64,000 nucleotides of DNA from Pseudodesulfovibrio sediminis (GTDB lineage: Bacteria > Desulfobacterota > Desulfovibrionia > Desulfovibrionales > Desulfovibrionaceae). Positions 4,648 to 19,753 of this stretch are shown here, in pieces. The DNA lies in NCBI RefSeq assembly GCF_020886695.1, contig NZ_AP024485.1, positions 1,311,001-1,375,000 of the forward strand, read 5' to 3'. Below the pieces are notes generated by a model that saw only the letters and a list, made by a program, of their open reading frames with translations, searched no databases and was not told the origin of the DNA. The stretch's first letter is position 1. Every line of letters starts with the position of its first letter. The position numbers were made by a program, and so were the translations under genes.

Positions 4648-5375
4648 ATCTGGTTTGCCTCAAGAAAAAGAGATTTAGAGAGTTTTTCAAAAAACTCCTG
4701 ATACACTTCCAGATCATTGATCTGTTCCTGCTTGTTGATTTGCCCCAATTTGTTGAAAATCACCCGCTGGAAGGTCACGCGAACAGCAGTCGAACCGGGT
4801 GTGTCCTTCACGGAAAGCAGTGTATCAAGGCCGTTTGCGAGAATGTCAGCCGTATCTTCAGCCATGGAACGTGCGATGCGCTCACATGCGTCCTTGGGAA
4901 ATGTCTCCTGAAGCCCTTCGTAGAGCACCGTGAAGACCTTTGCCCGGACTTCCTCGATCCGTTCAGGGGAAAGATCCGTGTCTTCCGCTTCTCCGCCCTG
5001 ATGCAACCCGCGCACCACCAGAGAAGCTTTGACCAGTTGGGTCGCGTCCGCCATGTTCACGGCATTGGGGTTGTTCCCCAGACCGCCAAGCAGAGCGAGC
5101 AGGAAGACCTGACCGCCATCGGTCGCGTCACGATTTTTAGAAGCAACGACAACACCAAGTTCGGTGGAAGTCTCATCAAGGTTGAAGCCCAGATCCTGCA
5201 GCACCGCGTTGGAAGCGAGCAGCACGGCCTCTTCATTGCCGGTCTCAAACTGCCTGGTCTGCATCTGCCTGTTTGCCATTGATTCCGGTGGCAGAAGCAA
5301 TGCTTCCTTGGGAATCTTGGGAGCACAACCGAACATCAGTGCGGTCAGTGCCAGCACGAGAAATAAACGTTTCAC
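4644..5375 (-). CDS. lipoprotein of unknown function
   Basis: A 243-residue predicted lipoprotein with N-terminus MKRLFLVLALTALMFGCAPK and the lipidated Cys at about residue 17. It shares N- and C-terminal blocks with the 139-residue downstream gene but carries an extra central region of about 100 residues. The start lies 9 bases after the stop of the third lipoprotein gene at 5385-5828, suggesting one transcript of three envelope proteins ending at the terminator near 4190. No catalytic motif was seen. Confidence 0.8.
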   Translation of the reverse strand: MKRLFLVLALTALMFGCAPKIPKEALLLPPESMANRQMQTRQFETGNEEAVLLASNAVLQDLGFNLDETSTELGVVVASKNRDATDGGQVFLLALLGGLGNNPNAVNMADATQLVKASLVVRGLHQGGEAEDTDLSPERIEEVRAKVFTVLYEGLQETFPKDACERIARSMAEDTADILANGLDTLLSVKDTPGSTAVRVTFQRVIFNKLGQINKQEQINDLEVYQEFFEKLSKSLFLEANQI

Positions 5376-5384
5376 CTATCCCCC

Positions 5385-5828
5385 CTAGAAACTGGACTGT
5401 CTGTAGACGAAGTCGCGAACCAGATTATTTTCGTCAAACTTGATGATGATGGTCAGAGTCCGCTGGGTTGTGCTCGAAGCGCCGGCAGAGCTGCTTGTAC
5501 TACCGCCACCAGCAGCACCGCCAATGCCGCCAAAGACCAAACCGAGCACGCCCACGCCACCGGATGATTTGGAATACACCCGCTCGGTTGCGACTTTGTC
5601 ATAGACCCAGGCTTCACGACGCTTGGAATCAGTGGTCACCATATTCGGTGATCCAAGCACACCCACAACATCGGCACTGGACATGCCGACGTGAATCTCT
5701 TTCTGCACAGTTCCCACAGTCAGCTTGTCACCACTGTCGTCCCGAACAGCTTCCCTGTGTTTGCTCGCCGATGCACAACCACCTACCATCAGCATCAACA
5801 CCATCAGAAGCATTGCTCCATATCGCAT
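5385..5828 (-). CDS. SmpA/BamE-like lipoprotein
   Basis: A 147-residue predicted lipoprotein (signal peptide to the Cys at about residue 18 in LMLMVGGCAS). The segment IHVGMSSADVVGVLGSPNMV followed by EAWVYDK matches the SmpA/OmlA (BamE-like) pattern of a short alpha/beta domain found in outer-membrane lipoproteins. A Gly/Ser-rich low-complexity stretch near residues 95-118 is followed by a C-terminal strand. First gene of the three-gene minus-strand lipoprotein group; GAGAGG lies upstream of the ATG. The molecular role is unknown. Confidence 0.75.
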   Translation of the reverse strand: MRYGAMLLMVLMLMVGGCASASKHREAVRDDSGDKLTVGTVQKEIHVGMSSADVVGVLGSPNMVTTDSKRREAWVYDKVATERVYSKSSGGVGVLGLVFGGIGGAAGGGSTSSSAGASSTTQRTLTIIIKFDENNLVRDFVYRQSSF

Positions 5829-5968
5829 GTTAACAACCTCTCAAGAATTTTGAATTCCACACAAAAAACAAACATATGCTCATGCTTGCACCTGCATCCC
5901 ACTATGCCTTTCCGGGCATTTTGTCCATGAATTAATCTTCATCAACGACGTATAAAACATAGCAAAAA

Positions 5969-5998
5969 AGGCTCCACCTGCACATGCTGGTGGAGCCT
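5969..5998 (-). terminator. rho-independent terminator at the end of the nif operon
   Basis: AGGCTCCACC and GGTGGAGCCT pair; on the minus strand the stem is followed by TTTTTTGCT. It sits 24 bases after the last small nif-operon gene (stop at 6022) and probably ends the nif transcript. Confidence 0.85.
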
Positions 5999-6021
5999 CG
6001 TGTTTGACAGTAGACGGGGAT

Positions 6022-6267
6022 TTACTCGGTCGGGCCCAGAGTCCGCACCGAAGCGATCTTTTCCCAGTCATAGTAGGTGTTGACGTTCAAGCCGCCCACA
6101 AGGCTGGTGACGCGGACGAATTCCTCGCCCAGGAAGAGGGTCGCAGACTCGTAGACTTCACCTTCGTTGACCTGTATTTTGACATCCTTGCGCAGCTTGC
6201 GGGACATGGTCCCCTGCACGGGTTTGGAGGCGTACTCGAATACTTTTTCCAATGTCGCTTTGTTCAT
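6022..6267 (-). CDS. conserved small protein downstream of nifB
   Basis: An 81-residue soluble protein without Cys. The second half (VKIQVNEGEVYESATLFLGE and following) looks like a small beta-barrel; this is an impression, not a domain match. It has an AGGAG ribosome site and lies 92 bases after nifB, just before the operon terminator, so it is probably the last nif-operon gene. I do not recognise the family. A role in nitrogenase maturation is inferred only from position. Confidence 0.65.
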   Translation of the reverse strand: MNKATLEKVFEYASKPVQGTMSRKLRKDVKIQVNEGEVYESATLFLGEEFVRVTSLVGGLNVNTYYDWEKIASVRTLGPTE

Positions 6268-6359
6268 TCTGTTCTCCTGTTCAAAGTGTTCCAGACTGGG
6301 GAGTTATACCAACTCGGGCACATGAAACGGATTGCAGCAGCAATGCCTCTTTGAGCGGC

Positions 6360-7628
6360 TTAGCCACAGCCCATTCCGCCACCGGTACAGGCGCTGCCGA
6401 TACCGGTCCGGCGAACTTTCAGGGCATTGATATCGCCACCTTCAAAGACGAATCGCAGCGCATCCTCAATGAACCCGTCGACCACATGGGATTTGATACC
6501 GTGTTCTTCAAGCAGCATGCTCGGGGTCTCGCCTACAGCGGCGCAAAGCACGGCCCGGCAATCCTTCAGGACGGCGGCCAGTTCAGACCACCGCTTGGGG
6601 CCACAGCCCGCAGTCGGCGCCTTACGCTCTTCGATCAGACGGTACCCGCCGGTCTCGGACTCACCCCAGATCTGGAATGATTTGGCTTCGCCGAGGTGCT
6701 GATTGACAAGCAGGCCCTCGCGGGTGGCAACAGCCACATACGGCTGGGCCATTTCCGCTTCCAGAGGCTTCAACTTGGAGCACGCTCTGAGGGTGCCGCA
6801 CAGGGCGACGGACTGATCATCTCCCAACAGACCGACAGCGTCGGCGCGACAGCGCTTGCAGTGGGTCATCTGTTCGATAAAGCCCTCGGCTTCCTTGCGC
6901 AGCGGCAGCACGGTCTCGCGCCCGGGCTCGGGAATTCCGGCAAACGGCGTGTCCGCAGTCGGCTTGAGCGGAATCATGTTCTGGATGTCCGCACCCAACG
7001 CGGAGCAGACCTTGGCCACCTCGACGATATGTTCATCATTGATGCCAGGGATAACGATGGAGTTTATTTTTACCGTGATGCCGCGCTCCTTGAGCCCCTT
7101 GATGGCCTTGAGCTGACGATCCAGCAGGATTTCTGCGCCCTTTTCACCGCGATACACCACGTTGCCGTCCTTGACCCAGGAGTAGATCTTGGCACCGATG
7201 GCCGGATCCACGGCGGAAATGGTGATGGTCACGTGCGACACGCCCAGCTCTGCGATATCGTCCAGATAGGGCAGGATGCCCATGCCGTTACTCGACAGAC
7301 AGAACAACAGGTGCGGATGACGCTCGTTCAAGAGACGCATGGTCTCAAGCGTTTCAGCCGGATTGGCGAACGGGTCACCGGGACCGGCAATACCGGCCAC
7401 GGTGATACGCGGCTCCTTTTCCAGGACCTTGTCCATATACTCGGCAGCCTGGAAAGGTTTGAGGACACCACTGGTCACGCCGGGGCGGGACTCGTTCACA
7501 CAGTCGTATTTACGATTACAGTAGTTGCACTGAATGTTGCACTTGGGTGCCACGGGCAGATGCACGCGGCCGCAAGAGCCTGCAGTTTCCTTATTGAAAC
7601 AGGGGTGCTTGGTGGTATCCTTAATCAT
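6360..7628 (-). CDS. nifB: FeMo-cofactor biosynthesis radical SAM protein NifB
   Basis: NifB (422 residues) builds the 8Fe-9S-C NifB-co core by radical SAM chemistry. The triad C30-x3-C34-x2-C37 sits in APKCNIQCNYCNRKYDC; the SAM-binding AGPGDPFA follows near residue 82. A downstream CKRC pair (about 285-289) probably helps hold the K-cluster precursors. The last 120 residues are a NifX-like domain that carries the cofactor. The gene is near the 3' end of the nif operon, 155 bases after nifN, with AAGGAG upstream. All catalytic Cys are present, unlike the paralogue at 11238-12398. Confidence 0.95.
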   Translation of the reverse strand: MIKDTTKHPCFNKETAGSCGRVHLPVAPKCNIQCNYCNRKYDCVNESRPGVTSGVLKPFQAAEYMDKVLEKEPRITVAGIAGPGDPFANPAETLETMRLLNERHPHLLFCLSSNGMGILPYLDDIAELGVSHVTITISAVDPAIGAKIYSWVKDGNVVYRGEKGAEILLDRQLKAIKGLKERGITVKINSIVIPGINDEHIVEVAKVCSALGADIQNMIPLKPTADTPFAGIPEPGRETVLPLRKEAEGFIEQMTHCKRCRADAVGLLGDDQSVALCGTLRACSKLKPLEAEMAQPYVAVATREGLLVNQHLGEAKSFQIWGESETGGYRLIEERKAPTAGCGPKRWSELAAVLKDCRAVLCAAVGETPSMLLEEHGIKSHVVDGFIEDALRFVFEGGDINALKVRRTGIGSACTGGGMGCG

Positions 7629-7783
7629 GATAAACTCCTTGTTTGCCTCTGGCGGATGAAGAAAGGGGTTTTCCGCTTCTTCCAGCCCCGCTCCCTTTTC
7701 GAACCTTCTATCGTTACACGAAAAGCGAGGTGGCTCTTCTTATGATTTCAACATCTGACTGGTTACAGTTTTGTTGTGTGTTT

Positions 7784-9160
7784 CTAAATATATCCGTAGC
7801 CGATAGAACTATCAGCCTGCTTCTTTTCAATAACGGCGTTGACGATCGTGTCGAACAGATTGAGGGCACCCTTGTAACCGAGATGCAGCACCCGCTGACC
7901 ACCGAAGCGATCATGGATGGGGAATCCCACACGGATGAGCGGAATGTTCCAGGCCTTGGCGTACCGATATCCCTTGGAGTGACCAATGAGCAGATCGGGA
8001 CGCAGGGATTCGGCTTCCTCGGAAATGTCGTAAAAATCGACGCCTTCACGCACTTCCGGGGCCATGCGTGCCACGCCGTCGGTGACGGCAGCGATGGCAT
8101 CTTCCATGCCCCGCTTGCGAGCACCGGAACCGGCCAGGACGACGTCCACACCGATCTCGGACAGGAAAGCACACAATCCGGTGACAAGGTCTTCCTCGCC
8201 GTAAACAACCGCACGCTTACCGAACACGTACTTGTGACCGTCCACATAGGCGTCGATCAGTCTGCCGCGTTCAAGCTCATACCGTTTCGGCATGGGGTTG
8301 CCGGAGATATCTTCCATGGTTTCAAAGAACCGATCGGATTCACGCAGGCCGATGGGCAGACCGATGCGGTGATTCTTCACGCCAAACGTCTTTTCAAGGG
8401 AAGTTCCCCCTGTCTGCGGAGGCAGGCAGCGACCGAACTCAATGGTGCCGCGAGCGCCGGACATTTCCTTGATCTCGGAAACGGGCGTCCCTCCGGAGGG
8501 AATCTTCACATAATCTTCCAGGGCCGGACCATCCAGTGTCTCGGAGATATCCGGCAGAATGGTGCCCTCGATGTCGAAATCACGGCAGATGTCATGGAGA
8601 TGCCGGACATCTTCGCACGAGACCATGTTGGGCAGGATGTTCACCCGACCGGTATCTTCGGCCTTGGACACGCACAGCTGCTCCATGACGGAACGAACCG
8701 CGCCATGCCAGCCGTCGATGTGCGTCCCGCTGTAGCTGGGCGTGGAAACCTCCACCAGATCAGGCAGGTCGAGGTCGCCGAATTCGCTCTTGAACTCCTT
8801 GAGGTTCATGGGCACGTCGTCACCGATGGTCTCCGTGAGACAGGTGGTGGCGACACCGATGACGGCAGGCTCGTACTTCTTCATGACATTGAGCATGCCC
8901 TTCTTGAGGTTCGGGCCACCGCCGTAAATGGCGTTCTTTTCGCCGAGCGCAGAGGACGCGATGTCCACAGGCTCGCGGAAATGGGAAATGATATAGCGGC
9001 GCATATAGGTCGCGCAGCCCTGGGAACCGTGCAGGAACGGGATGGCCCCTTCGATACCCCGGAAGGCCAGGGATGCGCCAAGCGGCGTACACAGCTTGCA
9101 GGCATTGGTGGTAGAGACGAAATTGGGCTTCACCGTCTTCTTGGTCTTGACCTTACTCAT
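7784..9160 (-). CDS. nifN: FeMo-cofactor scaffold subunit NifN
   Basis: NifN (about 458 residues) is the NifK-like half of the NifEN scaffold on which NifB-co is turned into FeMo-co. The N-terminus NACKLCTPLGASLAFRGIEG, then FLHGSQGCATY and TTCLTETIGDD, are the NifK/NifN cluster-ligand blocks. The frame is open upstream to 9256, but the ATG at 9160 fits the family and overlaps the last codons of nifE (ATGAGTAA), implying translational coupling. Partners: NifE, NifB, NifH. Confidence 0.93.
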   Translation of the reverse strand: MSKVKTKKTVKPNFVSTTNACKLCTPLGASLAFRGIEGAIPFLHGSQGCATYMRRYIISHFREPVDIASSALGEKNAIYGGGPNLKKGMLNVMKKYEPAVIGVATTCLTETIGDDVPMNLKEFKSEFGDLDLPDLVEVSTPSYSGTHIDGWHGAVRSVMEQLCVSKAEDTGRVNILPNMVSCEDVRHLHDICRDFDIEGTILPDISETLDGPALEDYVKIPSGGTPVSEIKEMSGARGTIEFGRCLPPQTGGTSLEKTFGVKNHRIGLPIGLRESDRFFETMEDISGNPMPKRYELERGRLIDAYVDGHKYVFGKRAVVYGEEDLVTGLCAFLSEIGVDVVLAGSGARKRGMEDAIAAVTDGVARMAPEVREGVDFYDISEEAESLRPDLLIGHSKGYRYAKAWNIPLIRVGFPIHDRFGGQRVLHLGYKGALNLFDTIVNAVIEKKQADSSIGYGYI

Positions 9161-10541
9161 TGACGGCCTCCTTCTTTTCAGCAGCGATACGATTGGCGCG
9201 ACGCGGCACGAACTGCCACACCGGAGACATGGCCGAGGAGTGGATCTCGCGGGCAAAGTTCAGCATGCCCACGAACCCTTCCAGCGCTTCCTTGCGCTCA
9301 TGGTTGTGGTCACAGAACCCAACACCGAGCTTGAAGGCAATGGGCCGTTCCTTGACCCCGCCCACAAAGACATCCACATCTTTTTCCTTGATGAAATGGG
9401 ACAGCTCCAGCGGGTTGGCATCGTCAATAATGACTGTGCCGGGATCAGTGATCTGTTCCAGTTCCGCGTAATCTTCTGCGGTGCCGGTCTGCGAACCGAC
9501 CATGACGCACTCCATGCCAAGGTGACGGAACGCCTTGACCAGGGAGAATGCCTTGAAGGAGCCGCCGACATACATGGCGACCTTCTTGCCTTCGAGGTCC
9601 TTGCGGTAGCGGGCCAGCTCGGGCATGAGCACTTCCAGCTCTTCCTTGACCAGCTTCTGGGTACGCTCGACAATGCCGGGGTCAATATCAGAGAAAAAGT
9701 CAGCCACCTTGTACAGGGAGTCGGCCATATCCTCGATGCCGAGGTAGGAAACACGCTCGTAGGGGATGCCGTATTCCTCTTCCATCATCTTGGCCAGATC
9801 GAGCGTGGCGCCACTGCACTGGACAAGGTTCAAGGCCGCGCCATGGCACTTGCCAATGTCTGCGACCCGACCATCGCCGGTCACGTTGGCAACAACCTGC
9901 ACACCCATCTTTTCGAAGTACTCGCGGATGATCCAGATTTCGCCAGCGATGTTGAAATCACCGAAAATATTAATGGAAAGCGGTGAAATACCCTCTGTGG
10001 GCAACGTTCCGATAAGCCTGAACATGGCCTTGCATGCGGCCAGATATCCGGCACGCTTGCTGCCCTTGAAGCCCTCGGACATGACCGGCAGGACCGGGAT
10101 GCCCTTCTTCTCGGTCATCTTGCGACACACGGCTTCCAGGTCGTCACCAATGATGCCGACGATACAGGTGGAATACACGAATGCGGCCTTGGGGCTGTGG
10201 CGATCAATGAGTTCGTCCAGCGCGGCTTCGAGCTTCTTTTCTCCACCAAAAATAACGTCGGTTTCCTGAAGGTCGGTGGAAAAGGAAAGTCTATGGAGTT
10301 CCGGGCCACTTGAGAGTGCCCCGCGTATATCCAGGGTATAGACCGCACAACCGATGGGGCCGTGCACCAGGTGCAGGGCGTCGGAAATAGGATACAGGAC
10401 CACGCGGGAGCCGCAGAACACGCATGCCCGCTGGCTGACCGCACCCGCCAGGGATTCACGGTTACAGGCGATGTCGATGGCGCCCTCTCCGCTCCTGTGG
10501 ATCTGATCCTTTCTTTCTTCAAGTATTGTTGTCTTACTCAT
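9153..10541 (-). CDS. nifE: FeMo-cofactor scaffold subunit NifE
   Basis: NifE (462 residues) is the NifD-like half of the NifEN scaffold. It has the P-cluster-type Cys blocks RACVFCGSR, LVHGPIGCAVY and STCIVGIIGDD, and the family segment DVIFGGEKKL. It lacks the catalytic FeMo-co His/Gln context of NifD, as expected for NifE. It precedes nifN with an 8-base overlap and follows a small ORF after a 92-base gap that contains a short GCCGGAG/CTCCGGC-type hairpin near 10602-10618. Confidence 0.93.
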   Translation of the reverse strand: MSKTTILEERKDQIHRSGEGAIDIACNRESLAGAVSQRACVFCGSRVVLYPISDALHLVHGPIGCAVYTLDIRGALSSGPELHRLSFSTDLQETDVIFGGEKKLEAALDELIDRHSPKAAFVYSTCIVGIIGDDLEAVCRKMTEKKGIPVLPVMSEGFKGSKRAGYLAACKAMFRLIGTLPTEGISPLSINIFGDFNIAGEIWIIREYFEKMGVQVVANVTGDGRVADIGKCHGAALNLVQCSGATLDLAKMMEEEYGIPYERVSYLGIEDMADSLYKVADFFSDIDPGIVERTQKLVKEELEVLMPELARYRKDLEGKKVAMYVGGSFKAFSLVKAFRHLGMECVMVGSQTGTAEDYAELEQITDPGTVIIDDANPLELSHFIKEKDVDVFVGGVKERPIAFKLGVGFCDHNHERKEALEGFVGMLNFAREIHSSAMSPVWQFVPRRANRIAAEKKEAVNE

Positions 10542-10633
10542 TGTTCTTCCCCTAATGAGTTAAATCTTTCAGTCGGTTACAGTCTTATCTCGGACAATCA
10601 TGCCGGAGTGTCTCCGGCGATACAGGACCTTGA

Positions 10634-10876
10634 TCAGCAGAGCCAGGCACCCTGGTCCCGCCGTCCTTCATGGAAGGCAGTAGATTCCACTTGGACGGCG
10701 AGACCGCCATCAGCCATAGAAGTTGTCATATGTCCCAACCACAAGCCGACCACAGTCACGTCGGCAGCTTGAGCGGTCAGGACGCATCCCCGACCAGTGT
10801 TCAGCATCAATTCCTGACCACGCTGCAGGTGTGGGTCAGCGATGATTGCGGGATGAATGACCATGGCTTCAGGCAT
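10634..10876 (-). CDS. small hypothetical protein between ferredoxin and nifE
   Basis: An 80-residue frame with a good ribosome site (AGAGAGGG, about 6 bases before the ATG), 15 bases after the ferredoxin stop. It has only two Cys, at GRGC and the C-terminal WLC. I do not recognise the family. The clean spacing and ribosome site support a real gene in the nif operon, but composition and protein pattern are unremarkable, so a spurious frame cannot be excluded. Confidence 0.5.
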   Translation of the reverse strand: MPEAMVIHPAIIADPHLQRGQELMLNTGRGCVLTAQAADVTVVGLWLGHMTTSMADGGLAVQVESTAFHEGRRDQGAWLC

Positions 10877-10891
10877 CGGTTACCCTCTCTC

Positions 10892-11194
10892 TTAGGCAGC
10901 CAAATATTCGGCGCAGGCTTCGCCCTCTTCGAGCGCGTCCAGAATTTCATCAATGGCCTCCTCGGAATCCACACCCTTGAACCACCAGTTCTCGGGCTGC
11001 ACGACCATGATAGGACCGGATTCACACTGCTTGAGGCAGGAGGAAGCCACGACCAGGGCGTCAATGCCGCGGTCCAAAAGTTCTTCTTCGATGTATTGCA
11101 GAAAGCCGTCAGTCTGCTTGTGACAAATGCCTTTGGGGTCACCAGCGGCGCGGAAACTCTGACAACAGATGATCATTCTCTCGGGGATAGCCAT
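10892..11194 (-). CDS. thioredoxin-like 2Fe-2S ferredoxin
   Basis: A 100-residue ferredoxin of the thioredoxin-like 2Fe-2S family. Cysteines in MIICCQSF, GICHK and SSCLKQCESGP give the C-x(10-12)-C ... C-x3-C ligand set; the last three residues before GP are typical. It lies inside the nif operon between the NifB paralogue and nifE. By analogy with FdxN- or FeSII-type proteins it may donate electrons to nitrogenase or cofactor assembly, or protect the enzyme. Which of these applies is not visible. Confidence 0.85.
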   Translation of the reverse strand: MAIPERMIICCQSFRAAGDPKGICHKQTDGFLQYIEEELLDRGIDALVVASSCLKQCESGPIMVVQPENWWFKGVDSEEAIDEILDALEEGEACAEYLAA

Positions 11195-11237
11195 TTTTCA
11201 TTCTCCTTCTCTTTCGATTGATTGCAGGTGATCAAAC

Positions 11238-12398
11238 CTATTTTTTACACTTCTTGCCTTTTTTCCCGCCGCCATAGATCGCATCCACAGTGGGTGCGAT
11301 TTCCCCGTCCGTAATCAGAACGGACATACCTTTGCGGCTCAAAACTTCTCTTGGCTTGTCGCCCGCGCTGGCTGTGAGGATCACGCAGCAGTCATTCAAC
11401 AGCTTGGCCAGCGTCTCCCAGCGCTTCCCACCGGAACCGGGTTCGGGCGCGTCGCGGGTTTCCAGCAAACAGGCCAAACCATCTTCGCGGGGACCATAAA
11501 TAAGGATCTTGTGCGCATGGCCCAGGTGGAGATCCACGTCCATGCCCGAGGAACTGACCACGGCCACATTGGGGCGTTCCTTGGTCGGCACCGGCGTGGT
11601 GCATATGCTCTCATCACACTTGTCAGGGCGATCAAGGCCGACCAGACCATCTCCGCACTCGGTCCATGCAGGCATCAGCTCGATATGCTGGGCAGCACGG
11701 TCACGTACAGTCGCCAGCAGCTCCATGTCAGGAGAACTGTCTTCCTCTTCGGGCCAGTAAGGAACAACGGCCATGATGTCGGCTCCAAGGGTGGCCATGG
11801 TCGCGGCGACCTTTTCCACATGTCCGGCATTGATACCGGGGTAGACCGTGGTGTTGACCTTGACCGTGATCCCGGCATTCTTGAATGCCGTCACCGACTT
11901 GGCCTGCTCGTTCATGAGCAGCTTGGCCGCCTCGGGCAACGGCATGTTCTTGGTCGCGGGACGAATCCACGCATAAATTTTTTCGGCAATTTCGGGATCC
12001 ACGGCGTCCACGAGAATCGTGACGTGGGAAAGCCCGAGAGCAGCCAGCTCTTCAGCATGCTCTGCACCGCTCAAACCGAGTGTGGTCAGGCACAGGGAAA
12101 TATCGGGATGGCTTTCACGGACCATCTTGAGGGTACGCAGGGTTGCCTCGGGCGCAGCCAGCGGATCGCCGGGGCCGGTGATGCCGACGATGGAAATGGG
12201 CTTCTCCTGGGCAACGACATGGTTCAGCCAGTTGAGCGCTTCCTCAGGCATGATGGCAGGCTGATTCTTGCCGAGGCCGGCGAACTTGGTGCGAGCATGA
12301 GCACGGGGTGCCACGGGCAGGTGCAACCGGCCGACGGTCTGGCGAGAGGTCATCCCGAAACAGGGGTGGGACTGGTAGTGTGTGGTGGTCGGTGCCAT
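11238..12398 (-). CDS. NifB paralogue lacking the radical SAM cysteines, with NifX-like C-terminus
   Basis: A 386-residue protein that aligns with NifB over its whole length: HPCF near residue 11, GRLHLPVAP at 23-31, the SAM-site-like GITGPGDPLA near 81, KVNTTVYPGIN, and a C-terminal NifX-like domain (HLGHAHKI, GGKRWETLAKLLNDC). The C-x3-C-x2-C triad is lost: positions matching NifB C30, C34 and C37 are A33, T37 and A40. The later CxxC pair keeps only one Cys. It should therefore not bind the radical SAM cluster. The intact frame and operon position argue for a working protein, perhaps a cofactor carrier or NifB partner. The frame is open to 12488; the ATG at 12398 after AGAAAGG matches NifB best. 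Confidence 0.9.
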   Translation of the reverse strand: MAPTTTHYQSHPCFGMTSRQTVGRLHLPVAPRAHARTKFAGLGKNQPAIMPEEALNWLNHVVAQEKPISIVGITGPGDPLAAPEATLRTLKMVRESHPDISLCLTTLGLSGAEHAEELAALGLSHVTILVDAVDPEIAEKIYAWIRPATKNMPLPEAAKLLMNEQAKSVTAFKNAGITVKVNTTVYPGINAGHVEKVAATMATLGADIMAVVPYWPEEEDSSPDMELLATVRDRAAQHIELMPAWTECGDGLVGLDRPDKCDESICTTPVPTKERPNVAVVSSSGMDVDLHLGHAHKILIYGPREDGLACLLETRDAPEPGSGGKRWETLAKLLNDCCVILTASAGDKPREVLSRKGMSVLITDGEIAPTVDAIYGGGKKGKKCKK

Positions 12399-12471
12399 GT
12401 GATTGCCTTTCTGGGGTTGGAGTAAGCCCGGAGTGGAGGGGGAAGCTCTCCACTCCGGACTGGGTATAATG

Positions 12472-13845
12472 CTACAGAACAAGCTCAAACGTCTGTTCGG
12501 GATCGTCCCTGTCCTTGCGGTCGAGGAACAACGTCAGGATCTTTTCGAGAAGCCTGAGTCCGCCCTTGTAGCCGACTGTCGGGAAGTACTGATGACCCTG
12601 CCGATCCAGGATGGGGAAGCCCCAGCGCAGGAACGGGATGTCTTCGTCGCGGGCAATGTACTTGCCGTAGGTATTACCAATAAGCAGATCAACGGATTCG
12701 TTCTTGATCCACTGATGCACGTCGAACATGTCGCCCTTGGCCTTGACCTTGACCTCGAAAGGCTGGCCTTCGCACAATTCCTTGATGCGAGCTTCGAACT
12801 TCTTGCCCGGGGTGCCGGTGACGACATAGACGGGCTGCATGTCCAGTGAAATCAGGAACTCGGTCATGGAGATGAGCTGATCCGGGTCGCCCCAGATGGC
12901 CACACGCTTACCGTAGAAGTACTGGTGCATGTCGGAGATCATATCCACGAGCTGGCCGCGTTCGACAGCAACGGAGTCGGGCACGGACACACCGGCAACG
13001 GTGCGCAGAACGTCGACAAAGCGGTCGGTGGCTGCCAGGCCGAACGGCATGTCCAGCACGGTGCAGGGAACCTTGCACTTGGAGTCGAGCCAACGGGCCG
13101 CGTCAGCAGAACACCACTCGCCCAGAGCCAGTGTACCGATGGCGTCACCGGAGGCTTTGAGTTCGGGGATGGTCACGCCGCCGTCGGGGAACATCTTGTA
13201 TTCGCCGGTCAGGGGAGCATCGAGTACGCCGGAGGTATCCGGGAACAAGGTGATATCCACGCCGATCAGACCGGCAATGCGCTTGATCTCGGCCATATCG
13301 CAGGGTTCGACCCAACCAGGGATGATGTTGACCTTGCCGTTCTTCTTGCCGGACGGTTCAGCCAACTGGGCCATGGCTTTGACCATGTTGGAGAAACCGG
13401 TGACATGGGAGCCGACATAGCTCGGAGTCGGGGCGCCGATGACAGTCTTGCCTTCGGGGATCTTGCCTTCCTTCTGTGCCTTGTCGCGGATCTGGTTCAG
13501 GTCGTCACCGATGGTCTCGGACAGGCAGGTGGTGTGCACTGCGATGACGTCCGGTTCGTAAACGGTGAAGATGTTGTTTATGGCCTGTACCAGGTTGGCC
13601 TGGCCACCGAACACGGATGCACCCTCGGTAAAGGAGCTGGTGGCAGCGGAGATAGGCTCTTTGTAGTGCCTGGTCAGGGTAGAACGATGGTAGGCGCAGC
13701 AACCCTGCGAACCGTGGCTGTGCGGGAGGCATCCCTTGATGCCAAGCGCAGCGTACATGGCCCCAATGGGCTGGCACGTCTTGGCCGGGTTGATCATCAG
13801 CGCCTTGCGCTCTTTGACTTCTTTCGGTGTATGTCTGAGTAACAT
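12472..13845 (-). CDS. nifK: nitrogenase MoFe protein beta chain NifK
   Basis: NifK (457 residues) forms the alpha2-beta2 MoFe protein with NifD and shares the P-cluster. Cys ligands lie in AKTCQPIGAM, HGSQGCCAYHR and TTCLSETIGDD. It is short at the N-terminus compared with Azotobacter NifK, as in cluster II/III enzymes such as that of Clostridium. I start it at the ATG at 13845, preceded by AAGGA; the frame is open to 13878. It is separated from nifD by an unusually structured 146-base gap. Confidence 0.95.
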   Translation of the reverse strand: MLLRHTPKEVKERKALMINPAKTCQPIGAMYAALGIKGCLPHSHGSQGCCAYHRSTLTRHYKEPISAATSSFTEGASVFGGQANLVQAINNIFTVYEPDVIAVHTTCLSETIGDDLNQIRDKAQKEGKIPEGKTVIGAPTPSYVGSHVTGFSNMVKAMAQLAEPSGKKNGKVNIIPGWVEPCDMAEIKRIAGLIGVDITLFPDTSGVLDAPLTGEYKMFPDGGVTIPELKASGDAIGTLALGEWCSADAARWLDSKCKVPCTVLDMPFGLAATDRFVDVLRTVAGVSVPDSVAVERGQLVDMISDMHQYFYGKRVAIWGDPDQLISMTEFLISLDMQPVYVVTGTPGKKFEARIKELCEGQPFEVKVKAKGDMFDVHQWIKNESVDLLIGNTYGKYIARDEDIPFLRWGFPILDRQGHQYFPTVGYKGGLRLLEKILTLFLDRKDRDDPEQTFELVL

Positions 13846-13885
13846 TTTCTTATTCCTTATCTCTTTCAATTTGTTCAAAAACCGA

Positions 13886-13970
13886 GCTGGCTAAGCGTAA
13901 ACCGAGGACAGTCTGAATCGTATCTGGCATACGTGAGGGGTTGTGTCCTCGGTACAGCGACGCAGCCAGC
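13886..13970 (-). promoter_or_regulatory. nested stem-loop between nifD and nifK
   Basis: Three nested inverted repeats fill the gap between nifD and nifK: an outer 7-bp stem (13886-13892 with 13964-13970, GCTGGCT/AGCCAGC), a middle perfect 10-bp stem (13901-13910 with 13944-13953, ACCGAGGACA/TGTCCTCGGT) and an inner 5-bp hairpin (13919-13923 with 13929-13933). No T run follows, so it is more likely an mRNA-processing or stability element than a terminator. Confidence 0.7.
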
Positions 13971-13991
13971 GTGGATTTTTCAACACATTGA

Positions 13992-15629
13992 TTATTCCCA
14001 AACGAACTTGCCTGTGAGTTCGGGACTCTCCTGCCAAGGAGCCTTCATGTAAGACCACACCTTGGAGTTAACGAGACGGTCGATTTCCTTGTAGAAATTG
14101 ACTGCGCCCTTGAATCCTGCATAGGGGCCGCCGGAGTCGTAGCTGTGCAGCTGCTTCATGGGCACACCCAGCTTCTGAATGGAGAACTTTTCCTTGATAC
14201 CGGCGCAGAAGATGTCCGGCTTGAGGAGTTCCACCAATTTCTCGGCTTCGTACTGGTTCAGGTCGTCGATGATGATGGACCCCTTATCCATGTCCGGATT
14301 CAGGCCGTCGTAGTGCTTGAACTCGTAACCGGCGTCTTCCAGAGCCTTGATTTCCTCAGGAGTCTTGCGCGGATTGTAAAGTTTCTCGTCGGCTACGACG
14401 GTGATCTCTTCAATGTTACGAGAATCGGCATCGACCTTGAGATCGGGAATGACCTGGCGTCCTTCGTAGTCATCACGGTGACCGAACTCGTAACCGGCGG
14501 AGATGGTTTTCATTCCCATTTCCTGGAACAGCTCGTTGTAGTGATGAGCGCGGGAGCCGCCGACAAACATCATGGCAGTCTTGCCATTGGTGCGGGTCTT
14601 GACGTCTTCGGACACGGCCAGAACTTCGGGCATTTCTTCGGCAATGACGGCTTCGACTCTGTCGATGAGCTTCTTGTCGCCAAAGTATTCAGCGATTTTG
14701 CGCAGGGACTTGGCCGTGGCTTCGGCACCAATGAAGTTCACCTTGATCCACGGGATGCCGTACTTGGTCTCAAGCATGTCAGCCACGTAGTTGATGGAAC
14801 GGTGACACATGACACAGCTCAGATCGGCATGCTGGGCAGAGGCGAACTGATCGTATGAAGAGTTACCGGAGAAGGTGGCGATGTTGGTGATGCCGCACTT
14901 CTTGAACACGCGGTCGATTTCGAAACCGTCGCCGCCGATGTTGTATTCGCCGAGCAGGTTGATCTTGTATTCGCCTTCAGGGGCGACTTCATTCTCACCG
15001 ACGAGGTGGGTGAAGACCTGGTTGTTGGCGATGTGGTGACCAGCGGACTGGGAAACGCCCTTGTATCCTTCACAGGAGAAGGCAAACACGTTGCAATCGC
15101 CGAACTGGGCTTTCATCTTCTTGGCAACGGCGTGGATGTCATCACCGATGAGGCCGACGGGACAGGTTGCGAACACCGCGATACCTTTGGGGTGGAAGAG
15201 GTCGTAGGCTTCCTGAATGGCAGCTTCGAGCTTCTTTTCGCCACCAAAAATGATGTCCTGATCCTGCATGTCGGTTGAGAAACAGTAAGGCATGTAGTTT
15301 TCGCCGTCAGTACCTGCGTCGGTCTGGTTACGACGGGTCAGCCATGCGTAGAAGCTACAGCCGATGGGGCCGTGAACCAGGTTCACGATGTCACGGGTCG
15401 GGCCCATGATAACGCCCTTACAACCGGCGTAGGTACAACCACGCATGGTGATGATGCCGGGGATGGTCCGAACGTTAGCCACAATCTCGGGAGCCGGTTC
15501 GGCCTCCGTGGCTTCGTTAATCATTATCTGCTTGGCACGCTTCCGGGCTACTTTGGGAGGATACTTCTTGAGAAGCTCTTCCTTGATGTCGGTAGCCGTG
15601 AACTGCACCACTTTTTTCGTCTTGGCCAT
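13992..15629 (-). CDS. nifD: nitrogenase MoFe protein alpha chain NifD
   Basis: NifD (545 residues) carries the FeMo-cofactor and half of the P-cluster. P-cluster Cys are in RGCTYAGCKGV, HGPIGCSFYAW and ATCPVGLIGDD. The FeMo-co Cys ligand is in LSCVMCHRSINYV and the His ligand in LHSYDSGGPYAG. The active-site Gln and His are kept in CEGYKGVSQSAGHHIAN. The length, with an extra segment near residues 380-430, matches cluster II/III molybdenum nitrogenases. AAGGAG lies before the ATG. The vnf/anf delta subunit is absent, supporting a Mo enzyme. Confidence 0.96.
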   Translation of the reverse strand: MAKTKKVVQFTATDIKEELLKKYPPKVARKRAKQIMINEATEAEPAPEIVANVRTIPGIITMRGCTYAGCKGVIMGPTRDIVNLVHGPIGCSFYAWLTRRNQTDAGTDGENYMPYCFSTDMQDQDIIFGGEKKLEAAIQEAYDLFHPKGIAVFATCPVGLIGDDIHAVAKKMKAQFGDCNVFAFSCEGYKGVSQSAGHHIANNQVFTHLVGENEVAPEGEYKINLLGEYNIGGDGFEIDRVFKKCGITNIATFSGNSSYDQFASAQHADLSCVMCHRSINYVADMLETKYGIPWIKVNFIGAEATAKSLRKIAEYFGDKKLIDRVEAVIAEEMPEVLAVSEDVKTRTNGKTAMMFVGGSRAHHYNELFQEMGMKTISAGYEFGHRDDYEGRQVIPDLKVDADSRNIEEITVVADEKLYNPRKTPEEIKALEDAGYEFKHYDGLNPDMDKGSIIIDDLNQYEAEKLVELLKPDIFCAGIKEKFSIQKLGVPMKQLHSYDSGGPYAGFKGAVNFYKEIDRLVNSKVWSYMKAPWQESPELTGKFVWE

Positions 15630-15653
15630 GTATCTGGTCTCCTTACGCGGCGG

Positions 15654-16028
15654 TTAAGCGATGGCGCTTGCGCCGGTTTCAGAGGTTCTGACGCGAACTG
15701 CGTCGCCGATGGGAAGGATAAAAATCTTACCGTCTCCAGGCTTGCCGGTCTGATTGGCTGCGGTGATGGCTTCCACCACTTCTTCAACCAAGTCATCGGG
15801 GACCACTGCCGTTACCATGCGCTTGGGATACAACTTGCCTTTCTCTCCCAGGACTGCTGCGGCTTCTTCGTAGCCACTTTCAGCACCTTCGACGAGAGCG
15901 GCATTGACGAACCCTTTACCTCGGCCCTGTGCTTCGTGAGCGAAGAAGGCGTCCACGCCGGCTTCAGTCAGAGCAGCCTTGGTCTTGTTCATCATGTTCA
16001 TGCGCACTACTGCGATGACTTCCTTCAT
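15654..16028 (-). CDS. nifI2: nitrogen regulatory PII-like protein NifI2
   Basis: A 124-residue GlnB/PII-family protein. It has the PII N-terminal strand MKEVIAVVRMNMMNKTKAAL, a T-loop region with RGKGFVNAAL, and the nucleotide-binding GDGKIFILPI. With NifI1 it forms the complex that, in methanogens, binds the MoFe protein and switches off activity when ammonium (low 2-oxoglutarate) rises. Its ATG overlaps the NifI1 stop by one base (TAATG). Placement between nifH and nifD is the classic arrangement of archaea and anaerobic bacteria. Confidence 0.92.
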   Translation of the reverse strand: MKEVIAVVRMNMMNKTKAALTEAGVDAFFAHEAQGRGKGFVNAALVEGAESGYEEAAAVLGEKGKLYPKRMVTAVVPDDLVEEVVEAITAANQTGKPGDGKIFILPIGDAVRVRTSETGASAIA

Positions 16029-16381
16029 TACGCGGCCTCCTCACTGGCTGCGGCGGTCTCTTGTACGCCGGAACTGATGGTGTAAACATCCTCGACATCA
16101 GTGACGAAGATCTTGCCATCGCCGAAAGCACCCTTGGTGCCGGAGCGGGCAGCGTCCATGATGGTTGCGATGACGTAATCTTTGTCTGCTGCGTTCACGA
16201 CGCTCATGAGCATGGTCTTGGGGATTTCGTCGTAGGTAACCTCACCAATCTTGATGCCGCGCTGCTTACCGCGACCAGCAACAGAATATTTGGTGACAGC
16301 AGGAAAACCGTTGTCCATCAGAGCGGCCAGGACTTCATCCGCTTTCTCGGGCCGCACAATCGCTCTTACCATGATCATCAT
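16028..16381 (-). CDS. nifI1: nitrogen regulatory PII-like protein NifI1
   Basis: A 117-residue GlnB/PII-family protein with N-terminus MMIMVRAIVRPEKADEVLAA, a short T-loop around GRGKQRGIKIGEVTYDEIPK, and nucleotide-site GDGKIFVTDV. It is the partner of NifI2, and the two are translationally coupled. AGGAGAG lies about 7 bases before the start. It follows nifH after a 155-base gap that holds a small ORF and a folded RNA segment. Confidence 0.92.
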   Translation of the reverse strand: MMIMVRAIVRPEKADEVLAALMDNGFPAVTKYSVAGRGKQRGIKIGEVTYDEIPKTMLMSVVNAADKDYVIATIMDAARSGTKGAFGDGKIFVTDVEDVYTISSGVQETAAASEEAA

Positions 16382-16430
16382 TTTAGCTCTCTCCTATCTT
16401 ACTTAATTTACTAACTTTTGGTTAACTTAG

Positions 16431-16511
16431 CTACAGTTCGAAGGGTGTGTGAACCGAGCCGCCAAAGGAATATGCTTCCTCGCGGAGGGCTGGTGCACCG
16501 AGGGACCCCAT
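16431..16511 (-). CDS. 26-codon ORF between nifH and nifI1
   Basis: A short frame (MGSLGAPALREE, ending HTPFEL) with one of the strongest Shine-Dalgarno sequences in the window (AAGGAGG, 5 bases before the ATG). It starts 25 bases after the nifH stop. Its start codon lies in a hairpin loop and its Shine-Dalgarno is partly inside two stems (see 16437-16527). It may encode a small protein or be a leader whose translation controls nifI1. No homologue is recognised. Confidence 0.5.
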   Translation of the reverse strand: MGSLGAPALREEAYSFGGSVHTPFEL

Positions 16512-16527
16512 GTGCACCTCCTTCGAA
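16437..16527 (-). promoter_or_regulatory. folded mRNA segment between nifH and nifI1
   Basis: An 8-bp outer stem pairs 16437-16444 with 16520-16527 (TTCGAAGG/CCTTCGAA). Inside it are a 7-bp hairpin, 16492-16498 with 16512-16518 (GGTGCAC/GTGCACC), and a 5-bp hairpin, 16466-16470 with 16476-16480. The outer stem and the 7-bp hairpin together cover most of the Shine-Dalgarno of the 26-codon ORF, and its ATG lies in the hairpin loop. Confidence 0.6.
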
Positions 16528-16536
16528 TGGTGAGAC

Positions 16537-17445
<909 letters not shown>

Positions 17446-17503
17446 TTATTTTATAAAACAAGACACTTACATAAAACTTAAAAATCATTATCACCTGACA
17501 ATT

Positions 17504-17519
17504 TGTGTAGGTAACAACA
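17504..17519. promoter_or_regulatory. NifA-type upstream activator site 1
   Basis: TGT-N10-ACA (TGTGTAGGTAACAACA), the consensus of NifA binding sites. It is about 105-120 bases upstream of the expected nifH start and about 135-150 upstream of the nifV start, which is normal for enhancer action. Confidence 0.7.
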
Positions 17520-17543
17520 GAATCTACAGACAAAAGTGTTGCA

Positions 17544-17570
17544 ACCTACAAAAATGTAGGTGAAACCACA
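17544..17570. promoter_or_regulatory. NifA-type upstream site 2 overlapping a palindrome
   Basis: TGT-N10-ACA at 17555-17570 (TGTAGGTGAAACCACA). The same TGTAGGT is the right arm of a perfect palindrome at 17544-17561 (ACCTACA-AAAA-TGTAGGT). A third TGTAGGT occurs inside site 1 at 17506-17512, so a second DNA-binding protein may use this motif. Confidence 0.65.
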
Positions 17571-17627
17571 GGAGCGGCCTAATTGTTTTAATACAATTAT
17601 TTAAGTATGTTATGTGAAAAACAAATT

Positions 17628-17644
17628 TTGGCACTGTTCATGCT
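17628..17644 (+). promoter_or_regulatory. sigma-54 promoter of nifV
   Basis: TTGGCACTGTTCATGCT has TGGCAC, a 5-base spacer and ATGC at -12, one base off TTGC. It lies 57 bases before the nifV ATG, on the strand opposite the nifH promoter, so the NifA sites are shared. Confidence 0.75.
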
Positions 17645-17700
17645 CAATAGAAAGACAGAACAAGAGACACAACGCACTTGTCATACGAAGGATATAGATC

Positions 17701-18795
17701 ATGCTCATCGACACAACACTCAGAGAAGGCGCACAGCTGTTCGGCGCATATTTCTCCATGGAGGCAAGAACACGGATCGTCACCTCCCTTATTCATATAG
17801 GAGTGGATGAAATCGAACTGGGCTGGATAGGCCAGGACGGCCTGGAAGAACTTTTGGCTCAGGTCCGCCCCTATCGTGGCCGGACACAACTTTCCGTGTG
17901 GTCACCCTGTCGCGAAGCGGATATCCGCAAGGCCTCCCTGCTCGGGGTCGACCGGGTGAACATCGGCGTCCCCATTTCCGACCTGCATATTGAAAAACGC
18001 CTTGGAACCGGCCGTGAGGGGCTTACCGAACGCCTGGCCCGCACCGTTCTCACAGCCGGTTTTCTCGGTATTGAGTACATCTCTGTCGGCCTGGAGGATG
18101 TCTCCAGAGCCGACAAGGATTTTGCCCTGAGCGCAGCCAAGCTGGCGCAGGACGTAGGAGCTTCCCGAGTCCGCCTGGCTGACTCATTGGGTATCCTCAA
18201 CCCGCTGAATACCGCTGAACTGGTCCATTCTTTTGCAAAGGAACTTGATGTGGATCTGGCTGTTCACTGCCACGACGACTTCGGCATGGCCACAGGGAAT
18301 GCGATCGCAGCCCTGTCCAGTGGTGCTGATTACGCTGATGCTTCCGTGCTGGGCATCGGGGAGCGTTCTGGCATTGCGGCCACAGAAGAAGTCGCGAGTT
18401 ATCTCACCTTGAAGGAGGAGTCACATGCTTATGAAATTGAAGGCCTTCGAAACCTTTGTGGTTTCGTCTCTCAAGCTGCCGGGGTACCGATTCCCCGTAC
18501 GAAGTCAATCGCGGGCGAGGATATTTTCGCTTGCGAATCAGGCCTCCACGCCCATGCCCTCAGCAAGTCGCCTGAACTTTTCGAACCGTACAACCCCGAC
18601 CGCATCGGCGCAGACCGGGTGGTCGCGGTTGGCGGCAAGAGTGGGCGAGCGGCAGTCGTCAACGCCCTCGAAAGCAGCGGTCTTGACCCGAAAGACCAGG
18701 ACATCCCGACCTTAGTTTCCGCTGTAAGAAAACTCGCCTGGGAGCTGGAACGTCCACTGACATCCCTGGAGTTATCTCGACTCATCAAAAATTAG
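17701..18795 (+). CDS. nifV: homocitrate synthase NifV
   Basis: NifV (364 residues) condenses acetyl-CoA with 2-oxoglutarate to give (R)-homocitrate, the organic ligand of FeMo-co. It has the DRE-TIM metallolyase signature at the N-terminus (LIDTTLREGAQLFG), the metal-site HCHDDFGMATGNA near residue 188, and GERSGIAATEEV. A LeuA-type regulatory domain is absent, as in NifV. The start is the ATG after AAGGA. It is divergent from nifH and heads a unit with a small exported protein, modB and a repeat protein. Confidence 0.93.
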   Translation: MLIDTTLREGAQLFGAYFSMEARTRIVTSLIHIGVDEIELGWIGQDGLEELLAQVRPYRGRTQLSVWSPCREADIRKASLLGVDRVNIGVPISDLHIEKRLGTGREGLTERLARTVLTAGFLGIEYISVGLEDVSRADKDFALSAAKLAQDVGASRVRLADSLGILNPLNTAELVHSFAKELDVDLAVHCHDDFGMATGNAIAALSSGADYADASVLGIGERSGIAATEEVASYLTLKEESHAYEIEGLRNLCGFVSQAAGVPIPRTKSIAGEDIFACESGLHAHALSKSPELFEPYNPDRIGADRVVAVGGKSGRAAVVNALESSGLDPKDQDIPTLVSAVRKLAWELERPLTSLELSRLIKN

Positions 18796-18805
18796 GAGAG
18801 ACGCC

Positions 18806-19009
18806 ATGTTTAAGAAATGTTTGTATATTTTCCTTTGGATTTGCGCCATGGCAGGCCCGGCCAACACCACCGGTGTTGACTATGGACAGGGCAACCAGAA
18901 GGCTCAAACCAGTGTGGCGGCTTTAAAAATACTGACAGGCAACAACAGCGCACTCCCGGGATTGATTTATGCAACCCCAGTTGCCAGCCGCCCCTTCGGA
19001 AACGAATAA
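18806..19009 (+). CDS. small exported protein before modB
   Basis: A 67-residue frame with AGGAGAG before the ATG and a hydrophobic N-terminus (MFKKCLYIFLWICAMAGPA) that looks like a signal peptide or membrane anchor. The rest is short and unrecognised. Its stop overlaps the modB start (TAATG), so the two are coupled. In other genomes modB is preceded by the molybdate-binding protein ModA (about 250 residues); this could be a remnant or a replacement, but no ModA motif is visible. Confidence 0.6.
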   Translation: MFKKCLYIFLWICAMAGPANTTGVDYGQGNQKAQTSVAALKILTGNNSALPGLIYATPVASRPFGNE

Positions 19010-19743
19010 TGGACACGACGGCTCTGCTGGTCACCGGCAAACTCGCTGGCGTGGTCACGCCGATCCTCCTGCTGCTGTGCATGCCGCTGGCCTACTGGCT
19101 GGCCAATACGCACACGGCAGGCAAGCGATACATCGAAGCAGCGTGTAACCTGCCGATGGTCCTGCCACCAACAGTGCTGGGCTTCGGCCTGCTCATGATC
19201 ATGAGTCCGACCTCACCCATGGGTGCGGCCTGGAAAGAGCTGACAGGCTCTGCCCTGCCTTTCTCGTTCACCGGCTTGATGCTCGGCTCGCTCATTTATT
19301 CGCTCCCTTTTGGCGTGCTCCCCATGCGCGCGGCCTTTGAAAAGATCGATCCGGGCATGGTGGAAGCGGCCCGCTCTTCCGGCATGACCCATTTCCAAAC
19401 CTTCAGGCACGTCATCCTGCCCAACGCCATGGGAGGCGTAACGGCCTCGGCAGCACTCATATTTGCCCATACGGTTGGCGAATTCGGCGTGGCCCTGATG
19501 ATCGGAGGTTCCATTCCCGGCAAGACCAAAGTCGCCTCCATAGCCATTTTCGAATACACTGAAGCCCTTGAATACGGTCAGGCAGGTCTGCTCTGTTTCG
19601 TGCTCATGATCATCAGTTATCTCGCCCTGCTTTTCATCGGGCGGCAGGGAATGCCCATGTGTCGACGCAGTGACTCTCACGTTGATCATCAGTCTCCTAT
19701 AGCCAACCATTGTCACCAGCCCCGCGCCCTGCGTGAGGTATAG
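19009..19743 (+). CDS. modB: molybdate ABC transporter permease ModB
   Basis: A 244-residue membrane protein with about five hydrophobic helices and the permease EAA loop: EAARSSGMTHFQTFRHVILP near residue 120. CNLPMVLPPTVLGFGLL and HTVGEFGVALMIGGSIPGKT are hallmarks of ModB/CysU-type molybdate or sulfate permeases. It would import molybdate for FeMo-co and Mo enzymes. No modA or modC lies next to it, so it needs subunits from elsewhere. The last 30 residues are a hydrophilic His-rich tail not typical of ModB. Confidence 0.88.
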   Translation: MDTTALLVTGKLAGVVTPILLLLCMPLAYWLANTHTAGKRYIEAACNLPMVLPPTVLGFGLLMIMSPTSPMGAAWKELTGSALPFSFTGLMLGSLIYSLPFGVLPMRAAFEKIDPGMVEAARSSGMTHFQTFRHVILPNAMGGVTASAALIFAHTVGEFGVALMIGGSIPGKTKVASIAIFEYTEALEYGQAGLLCFVLMIISYLALLFIGRQGMPMCRRSDSHVDHQSPIANHCHQPRALREV

Positions 19744-19753
19744 GAAAGATCCC

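Follow-up and report, generated by a model that had tools for sequence, protein, structure and literature searches.

The closest described relatives of the protein reported here are NifB, the radical S-adenosylmethionine (SAM) carbide synthase, in the form that carries a C-terminal NifX-like domain; NifX, a carrier of NifB-co; and NafY and NifY, chaperones for the iron-molybdenum cofactor (FeMo-co) and apo-NifDK. Most of what is known about NifX and NafY comes from Azotobacter, and we know of no NifB-co carrier in the bacteria considered in this study. In the NifEN-NifX structure, H35 of NifX holds NifB-co and passes the cofactor to C25 of NifE, and the NifX C terminus binds a positive patch of NifE. 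Here, a 64,000-nucleotide stretch of the Pseudodesulfovibrio sediminis genome (NZ_AP024485.1, positions 1,311,001 to 1,375,000; the window) was analyzed. Its nif operon contains, on the reverse strand at 11238..12398, a gene for a 386-amino-acid (aa) NifB paralogue that, judged by sequence, is catalytically dead. This paralogue sits between nifK and a ferredoxin gene and is labeled the slot protein; it is tentatively proposed to have become a cofactor carrier.

The ligands of NifB from Methanosarcina acetivorans, as given in the portions of the reports drawn on here, are C50, C54 and C57 for the SAM cluster, C30, C63, C129 and H43 for the K1 cluster, and C264, C274 and C277 for the K2 cluster (PMC6053413, PMC7145814). 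In MtNifB, the counterpart of C63 is part of a flexible loop and covers the SAM cluster, and the same loop brings a Glu to K1 (PMC9692996, in part). In the family counts below, C30, H43, C63, C129, C274 and C277 follow the M. acetivorans numbering, C274 and C277 being the K2 ligands that were mapped.

Gene and catalytic motifs

The slot gene is open from the ATG at 12398 to the stop at 11238. BLASTP matched its product over the full length to the NifB of the same operon (6360-7628), with 234 bits, an E value of 5e-78 and 135/392 identical residues (34%). Both PF04055 (Radical_SAM, 41.2 bits) and PF02579 (Nitro_FeMo-Co, 37.7 bits) passed the Pfam cut-off, and GRLHLPVAP, GPGDP and the NifX-like C terminus are all present. 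With the NifB model TIGR01290, the slot protein scored 201.1 bits, below the cut-off of 343.65, compared with 389 for the true NifB. The presence in the nif operon of a second NifB copy without the SAM triad was confirmed.

Residues 1-268 (11595..12398) make up a pseudo-radical-SAM barrel, and residues 276-386 (11241..11573) comprise the NifX-like domain with a lysine-rich tail. In the family alignment, the SAM cysteines C30, C34 and C37 of the window NifB stand opposite A33, T37 and A40. An alternative alignment hiding the triad was ruled out, because there is no Cys between C13 and C103 (residues 14 to 102); hence, the absence of CX3CX2C does not depend on the alignment. The loop that carries the C63 and Glu ligands is missing owing to a 10-residue gap, which is slightly shorter in a few relatives within the genus. 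In the later CxxC, the first Cys (C274) is W245 and the second (C277) is retained as C248, so that CX2CRXDAXG is absent. TxTxN is likewise absent, reading TILVD, and the AGPG region reads TGPG. The K1-side ligands are retained as C13 (C30), H26 (H43) and C103 (C129). The original prediction, made from the window sequence, had claimed the full-length match, the conserved motifs and C terminus, the three replaced cluster cysteines, the lost Cys of the later CxxC, the intact frame and the location between nifK and a ferredoxin gene, and each of these was borne out. That prediction had overlooked the 10-residue deletion, the retained ligands C13, H26 and C103, and the NifX-type histidine H291.

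Distribution and operon position

Among 36 genus genomes, including that of P. sediminis, 29 carried the slot gene, 2 had NifB alone, 1 gave a weak match only and 4 gave none. For 28 of the 29 copies, both neighbors, nifK and the ferredoxin gene, were observed; a contig end cuts the G008 copy, for which nifK was visible and the ferredoxin gene was not. No internal stop was present in 28/29 genus matches, and the single TAA is the end of a 387-aa open frame. The operon order is nifH-nifI1-nifI2-nifD-nifK-slot gene-ferredoxin-nifE-nifN-nifB, where the first three genes are those we take to be nifH, nifI1 and nifI2. The same order was found in 24/24 other slot-bearing genus loci read over the whole operon, and in L147.

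Of 395 genomes searched across the phylum, 57 gave a match. The 17 fetched comprised 13 slot loci (L131-L143), which span five other families and include one repeat, and four with NifB alone (L144, L145, L146 and L150). Ten loci from Desulfocapsaceae/Desulfobulbaceae bins yielded slot proteins in L079-L084, NifB in L085, L086 and L088, and a match to NifB residues 7-276 in L087. Four loci were excluded before counting: L086, which proved to be a false slot; L079, which comes from the genome that also gave L045; L133, whose contig is as long as that of L084 and which was taken as a repeat of it; and L149, which is cut at a contig end. Wider-family counts refer to 73 distinct full-length slot proteins, including 27 of the 29 genus rows and leaving out L128, which was included in the tail comparison and in the set of 74 loci used for nifE distances. 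In loci up to L128, the definition of a slot protein was positional, with nifK on one side and the ferredoxin gene on the other; position is therefore independent evidence only for copies found first by similarity (the genus matches, L079-L084, L131-L143, L147 and L148).

The place was empty in L046, L047, L055, L056, L058, L121, L122 and L150, and also in two Nitratidesulfovibrio vulgaris plasmids. In L046 (genome G009, without a slot gene), nifH, the ferredoxin gene and nifE were each split over two matches, probably owing to assembly errors or a decaying cluster.

Conservation of ligands in the family

Genus residue counts were taken from 28 aligned rows, with L147 as the 29th. The SAM triad was found in 0/29 genus orthologues, and the ExRP motif of the plug loop was absent, with a gap at both ligands in 28/28 rows. 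The first Cys of CX2CRXDAXG was replaced by W or F and its R by G in 27/27 readable rows. The last position of TxTxN was D or H in 28/28, with the second T in 0% of the 73, and GPG was retained in 28/28. On the other side, C30 (the Cys of HPC) was kept in 29/29, H43 in 29/29, C129 in 28/29 and C277 in 28/28 readable rows. Since the genus proteins retain three ligands of K1 and a single cysteine of K2, their barrel may still hold a cluster.

Across the family, this pattern was not maintained. The HPC Cys was present in 75% of the 73 proteins, every catalytic cysteine was lost in some or most members, and most ligands were gone in the Desulfocapsaceae copies and in several genera. NifB-invariant positions kept in ≥95% of the 73 numbered 11/15 in the NifX-like domain and 8/58 in the barrel; the barrel of the 27 genus rows keeps 25/58. 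The original prediction had held that orthologues with the triad would mark the window copy as a decaying duplicate. None occurred in the genus, but at greater distance the triad was retained in 3/73 homologues. Of these, L109 has the triad, H43, C63, C274 and C277 and has lost C30 and C129, while L106 and L107 have the triad and C63 and have lost C30, H43, C129, C274 and C277. Lacking K1 ligands, these three would not be working NifBs either.

In L134-L136, L138, L139 and L143, HPC is lost, a Cys stands two residues on (YC/FC), H43 and C129 are kept and the K2-side Cys is shifted by one, which has the appearance of a metal site that was relocated and is still under selection.

Selection

The ratio of nonsynonymous to synonymous substitution rates (dN/dS) was estimated by the Nei-Gojobori method, which is rough at high dS, for 19 hand-picked near-sister pairs, 14 of which gave all four values; medians and pair counts are reported. 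The slot barrel gave 0.10-0.35 in 19/19 pairs, and the neutral ratio that, according to the original prediction, a decaying duplicate would have was thus not seen. The median was 0.26 for the slot barrel, 0.14 (0.138) for the slot NifX-like domain, 0.10 for the NifB barrel and 0.12 (0.123) for the NifB NifX-like domain. The slot barrel exceeded the NifB barrel in 14/14 pairs, about 2.5 times, and its own NifX-like domain in 13/14, compared with 3/14 pairs in which the NifB barrel exceeded its own. The slot NifX-like domain exceeded that of NifB in 7/14 pairs, so that the two are equally constrained. Genus pairs (up to 215 usable of 300, non-independent) gave medians in the same direction, 0.35, 0.24, 0.13 and 0.19, respectively, the slot barrel reaching at most 0.71. 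Therefore, the slot protein has been kept under purifying selection, with the barrel relaxed and the NifX-like domain not relaxed. Together with the 0/29 triads, the barrel values support a loss of catalysis with a retained fold and a new role, as had been predicted.

NifX-like domain and short forms

The histidine of the HLG motif (H291; codon at 11526..11528) was retained in 73/73 full-length slot proteins, in 28/28 readable genus rows and in 4/4 NifX-only short forms read. It aligned with residue 35 of the NifX chain 9ian_E, although this match was weak (E 0.26). As the structural matches of the full-length model were radical-SAM barrels, the NifX part was modeled alone; NifX was then the best structural match, tied with the NafY core 1p90, and the model showed both the NifX fold and the core-NafY fold. 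The C-terminal 120 aa scored 13.4 bits with the NifX model TIGR02663, below its cut-off of 112. A GGGKKGKK-type lysine-rich C-terminal tail was found in most of 60 slot proteins, including those of the Desulfocapsaceae, and could serve for docking to a partner.

In genus g12, a NifX-like protein of 112-128 aa occupied the slot place alone in 4/4 loci read; matches of 77-100% to this short form were found in 8/13 genomes, one of them in a 403-aa frame.

Among described proteins with this histidine, H121 of NafY lies within the same motif as the NifX His, and the N-domain of NafY binds apo-NifDK (PMC8496260, in part). NifY lacks the His (PMC13128457). In Leptolyngbya, the functions of NifX and NafY are reported, in the section drawn on, to overlap partly (PMC6428710).

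Descent

A tree of slot and NifB proteins was computed with the ligand columns removed, and three NifB from other phyla served to root it. The 55 slot proteins fell on one side of one branch (bootstrap/Shimodaira-Hasegawa-like approximate likelihood ratio test 100/99) within the clade of Desulfobacterota NifB and slot proteins and hence share a common descent. L106, L107 and L109, which have the triad, come out next to the remaining 52, although support for this is mixed (97/43). The exact place of the family among NifB is unsure because of a long slot stem, fast rows and NifB rows that do not confidently form one clade (61/46). On this tree a single loss of the SAM triad is required, compared with at least seven changes each for C30, H43 and C129; the co-loss of H43 and C129 offers few independent pairs.

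The NifX-like domains of slot proteins and short forms split jointly from those of NifB (100/100). Acquisition of this domain from a stand-alone NifX is not favored, as the C-terminal domains score higher on the NifB than on the NifX model (46.8 versus 21.2 bits for the short form; 34.7 versus 13.4 bits for the C-terminal 120 aa of the window protein). The short forms lay inside the slot family in a careful tree (96/95), but an approximately unbiased test did not reject the alternative that they are ancestral (p 0.36), and a quick tree with far outgroups left them unplaced.

Proposed function

The reading we favor, if tentatively, is that the slot protein is a NifB duplicate turned into a NifX/NafY-type cofactor carrier, with NifB-co as its most likely cargo. 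A two-domain NifB would have been duplicated once in the Desulfobacterota; the copy would have come to lie behind nifK, next to the ferredoxin gene, and would have lost NifB catalysis, and its product would now carry the unfinished nitrogenase cofactor rather than synthesize it. What suggests a carrier is that the NifX-like domain and its His were kept while the enzyme part, judged by sequence, cannot make NifB-co; the cargo, the partner and the direction of cofactor transfer are inferred. Of the three roles offered by the original prediction (NifB-co carrier, NifB chaperone or scaffold between NifB and NifEN), the carrier fits best, on account of the NifX-like domain and its invariant His and not of the radical-SAM fold, where constraint is relaxed. 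The accompanying statement that such a protein has no described function was too strong, since NifX and NafY share the C-terminal domain and have a tested carrier role. Two observations weigh against a firm choice of NifB-co: the slot gene remains beside nifK and the ferredoxin gene in loci that have no nifE close by, and the lysine-rich tail is unlike the NifX C terminus, which binds a positive patch. An unlikely extension is a two-site relay, in which the genus barrel would take NifB-co from NifB in a copy of the product pocket and pass it to H291 for delivery. As the ligands C13, H26, C103 and C248 are kept and the SAM cluster and plug loop are lost, the barrel could receive NifB-co; to our knowledge, a product-holding pseudo-enzyme of this kind is without precedent in nitrogenase assembly.

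It is also possible, if rather unlikely, that the slot protein has a NafY/NifY-type role, with the same carrier fold, finished FeMo-co (or none) as cargo, apo-NifDK as partner and the dead barrel serving in place of the N-terminal docking domain of NafY. In Azotobacter and Klebsiella, nifY follows nifK. The slot gene likewise directly follows nifK, even where nifE is distant: among the 74 loci, nifE was found after the ferredoxin gene within 3.5 kb in 64 and at 4.1 kb in one, eight had none in the 4.9-7.0 kb read and one contig was too short. The tie with the NafY core and the position of NafY H121 fit such a role as well. However, the gene order may be inheritance only, the slot protein descends from NifB, whose product is NifB-co, and the His missing from NifY is present in all 73 slot proteins. 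A regulatory or structural NifB partner that binds no cluster (pseudo-enzyme heterodimer, NifB chaperone or NifB-NifEN scaffold) would account for the full-length likeness to NifB, the selection on the barrel and the loss of its metal ligands in several lineages. This is quite unlikely, as conservation is highest in the cofactor-binding domain and its His, NifX-only forms have no barrel and NifB is described, in the portion consulted, as monomeric (PMC7145814).

The near-complete retention of C13, H26, C103 and C248 in the genus, residues that match the K1 ligands C29, H42 and C128 and the K2 ligand C276 of MtNifB (PMC9692996, in part), could point to a holder or donor of the precursor [4Fe-4S] (K1) cluster for NifB. 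The fourth K1 ligand, the Glu of the plug loop, is gone, and the repeated changes at C30, H43 and C129 mean that K1 holding cannot be the common function of the family, which makes this role improbable. Gradual decay and eventual loss of the duplicate would explain the raised dN/dS of the barrel, up to 0.71 among genus pairs, and the absence of the slot gene from some genomes. This reading was rejected as extremely improbable on dN/dS, spread and intact frames: the family is a single clade across the phylum in a fixed place, and neither neutral dN/dS nor frequent broken copies were found.

On the favored carrier reading, the slot gene is a concrete NifB-co carrier candidate in many Desulfobacterota nif operons. 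It is easily mistaken for NifB by similarity or Pfam domains, and nifB counts would be misled accordingly. The family also offers a natural series for separating the residues of NifB catalysis from those of holding and hand-over, with a few members having SAM cysteines without K1 ligands, many the reverse, one genus only the NifX domain, and the His constant.

Other features of the window and related loci

The remaining operon genes are also on the reverse strand. The true NifB (6360..7628) has all motifs and passed the TIGR01290 cut-off. For nifN (7784..9256), the NifEN, NifK and NifN models all matched below cut-off, and the gene was named by position and best kin. Scores above cut-off were obtained for nifE (9153..10541; TIGR01283, 604.6 bits), nifK (12472..13878; TIGR01286, 446.6 bits) and nifD (13992..15629; TIGR01282, 664.9 bits). 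The 2Fe-2S ferredoxin gene adjoining the slot gene (10892..11194) scored 46.9 bits with NF041612, below the cut-off of 150. The operon start, presumably nifI2, nifI1 and nifH, occupies 15654..17367. An exact sigma-54-type site, matching the consensus TGGCACN5TTGC, lies 46 bp before nifH (17413..17427, reverse strand). Exact matches to this consensus numbered two in the window, and with ≤2 mismatches there were 79 matches versus 80 by chance. A promoter and terminator scan of 10800-14100 was near chance, and no RNA family reached its gathering score in 5300-20000.

An 80-aa open reading frame (ORF) on the reverse strand between the ferredoxin gene and nifE (10634-10876) has 34-50% matches in 14/27 other slot-bearing genus loci and no Pfam match; it is possibly a small nif-associated protein. 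Besides NifB, no other PF02579 gene of the genome lies within the nif cluster, and four further Nitro_FeMo-Co domain matches above cut-off lie outside it (G000:C1:519764, 2416419, 2418551 and 1047264). Two genus genomes carry, outside the nif cluster, single-domain NifB-like proteins (L060:8344-9129 and L061:8121-8909) with 34-35% identity to NifB, CX3CX2C and CX2CRADA present and a plug-loop region of different sequence; the L061 gene adjoins ORFs that by eye resemble a solute-binding protein and a polyferredoxin. In L131, an extra NifX-like stretch (835-1134) adjoins nifB besides the full slot gene, and one genome, G041, has two separate short ORFs (129 and 131 aa; L052 and L053) like the NifB C-terminal domain.

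Comparison with described proteins

In the open-access literature, no description was recognized as the slot family among the matches listed. Arragain et al. (2017) excluded 28% of 390 putative NifB sequences as NifX; most of those excluded lacked CX3CX2C (PMC5715403). Like slot proteins, these are annotated as NifB, have a NifX domain and lack the motif, and some may belong to the slot family; however, they were taken as misannotated NifX, and the part of that report drawn on here contains no description of dead, full-length paralogues of NifB at a single operon position. NifB3 and NifB4 of Paenibacillus are likewise extra nifB copies beside a working one, with no NifB activity found, but in the portion of the report used they are two-domain copies that keep CX3CX2C, are not transcribed and are proposed pseudogenes (PMC8287671).

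Compared with NifB that has a C-terminal NifX-like domain, the slot protein lacks CX3CX2C, the ExRP loop, TxTxN and CX2CRXDAXG and falls below the NifB model cut-off. It differs from NifX in the roughly 270-aa dead NifB barrel in front, in its lysine-rich tail, as opposed to a C terminus that binds the positive patch of NifE, and in a C-terminal domain that is nearer to NifB's own NifX-like domain than to NifX by model score. The N-domain of NafY is not known to be related to the NifB barrel. In contrast to NafY and NifY, the N-terminal part of the slot protein is a NifB barrel, and its C-terminal domain keeps the His that NifY lacks.
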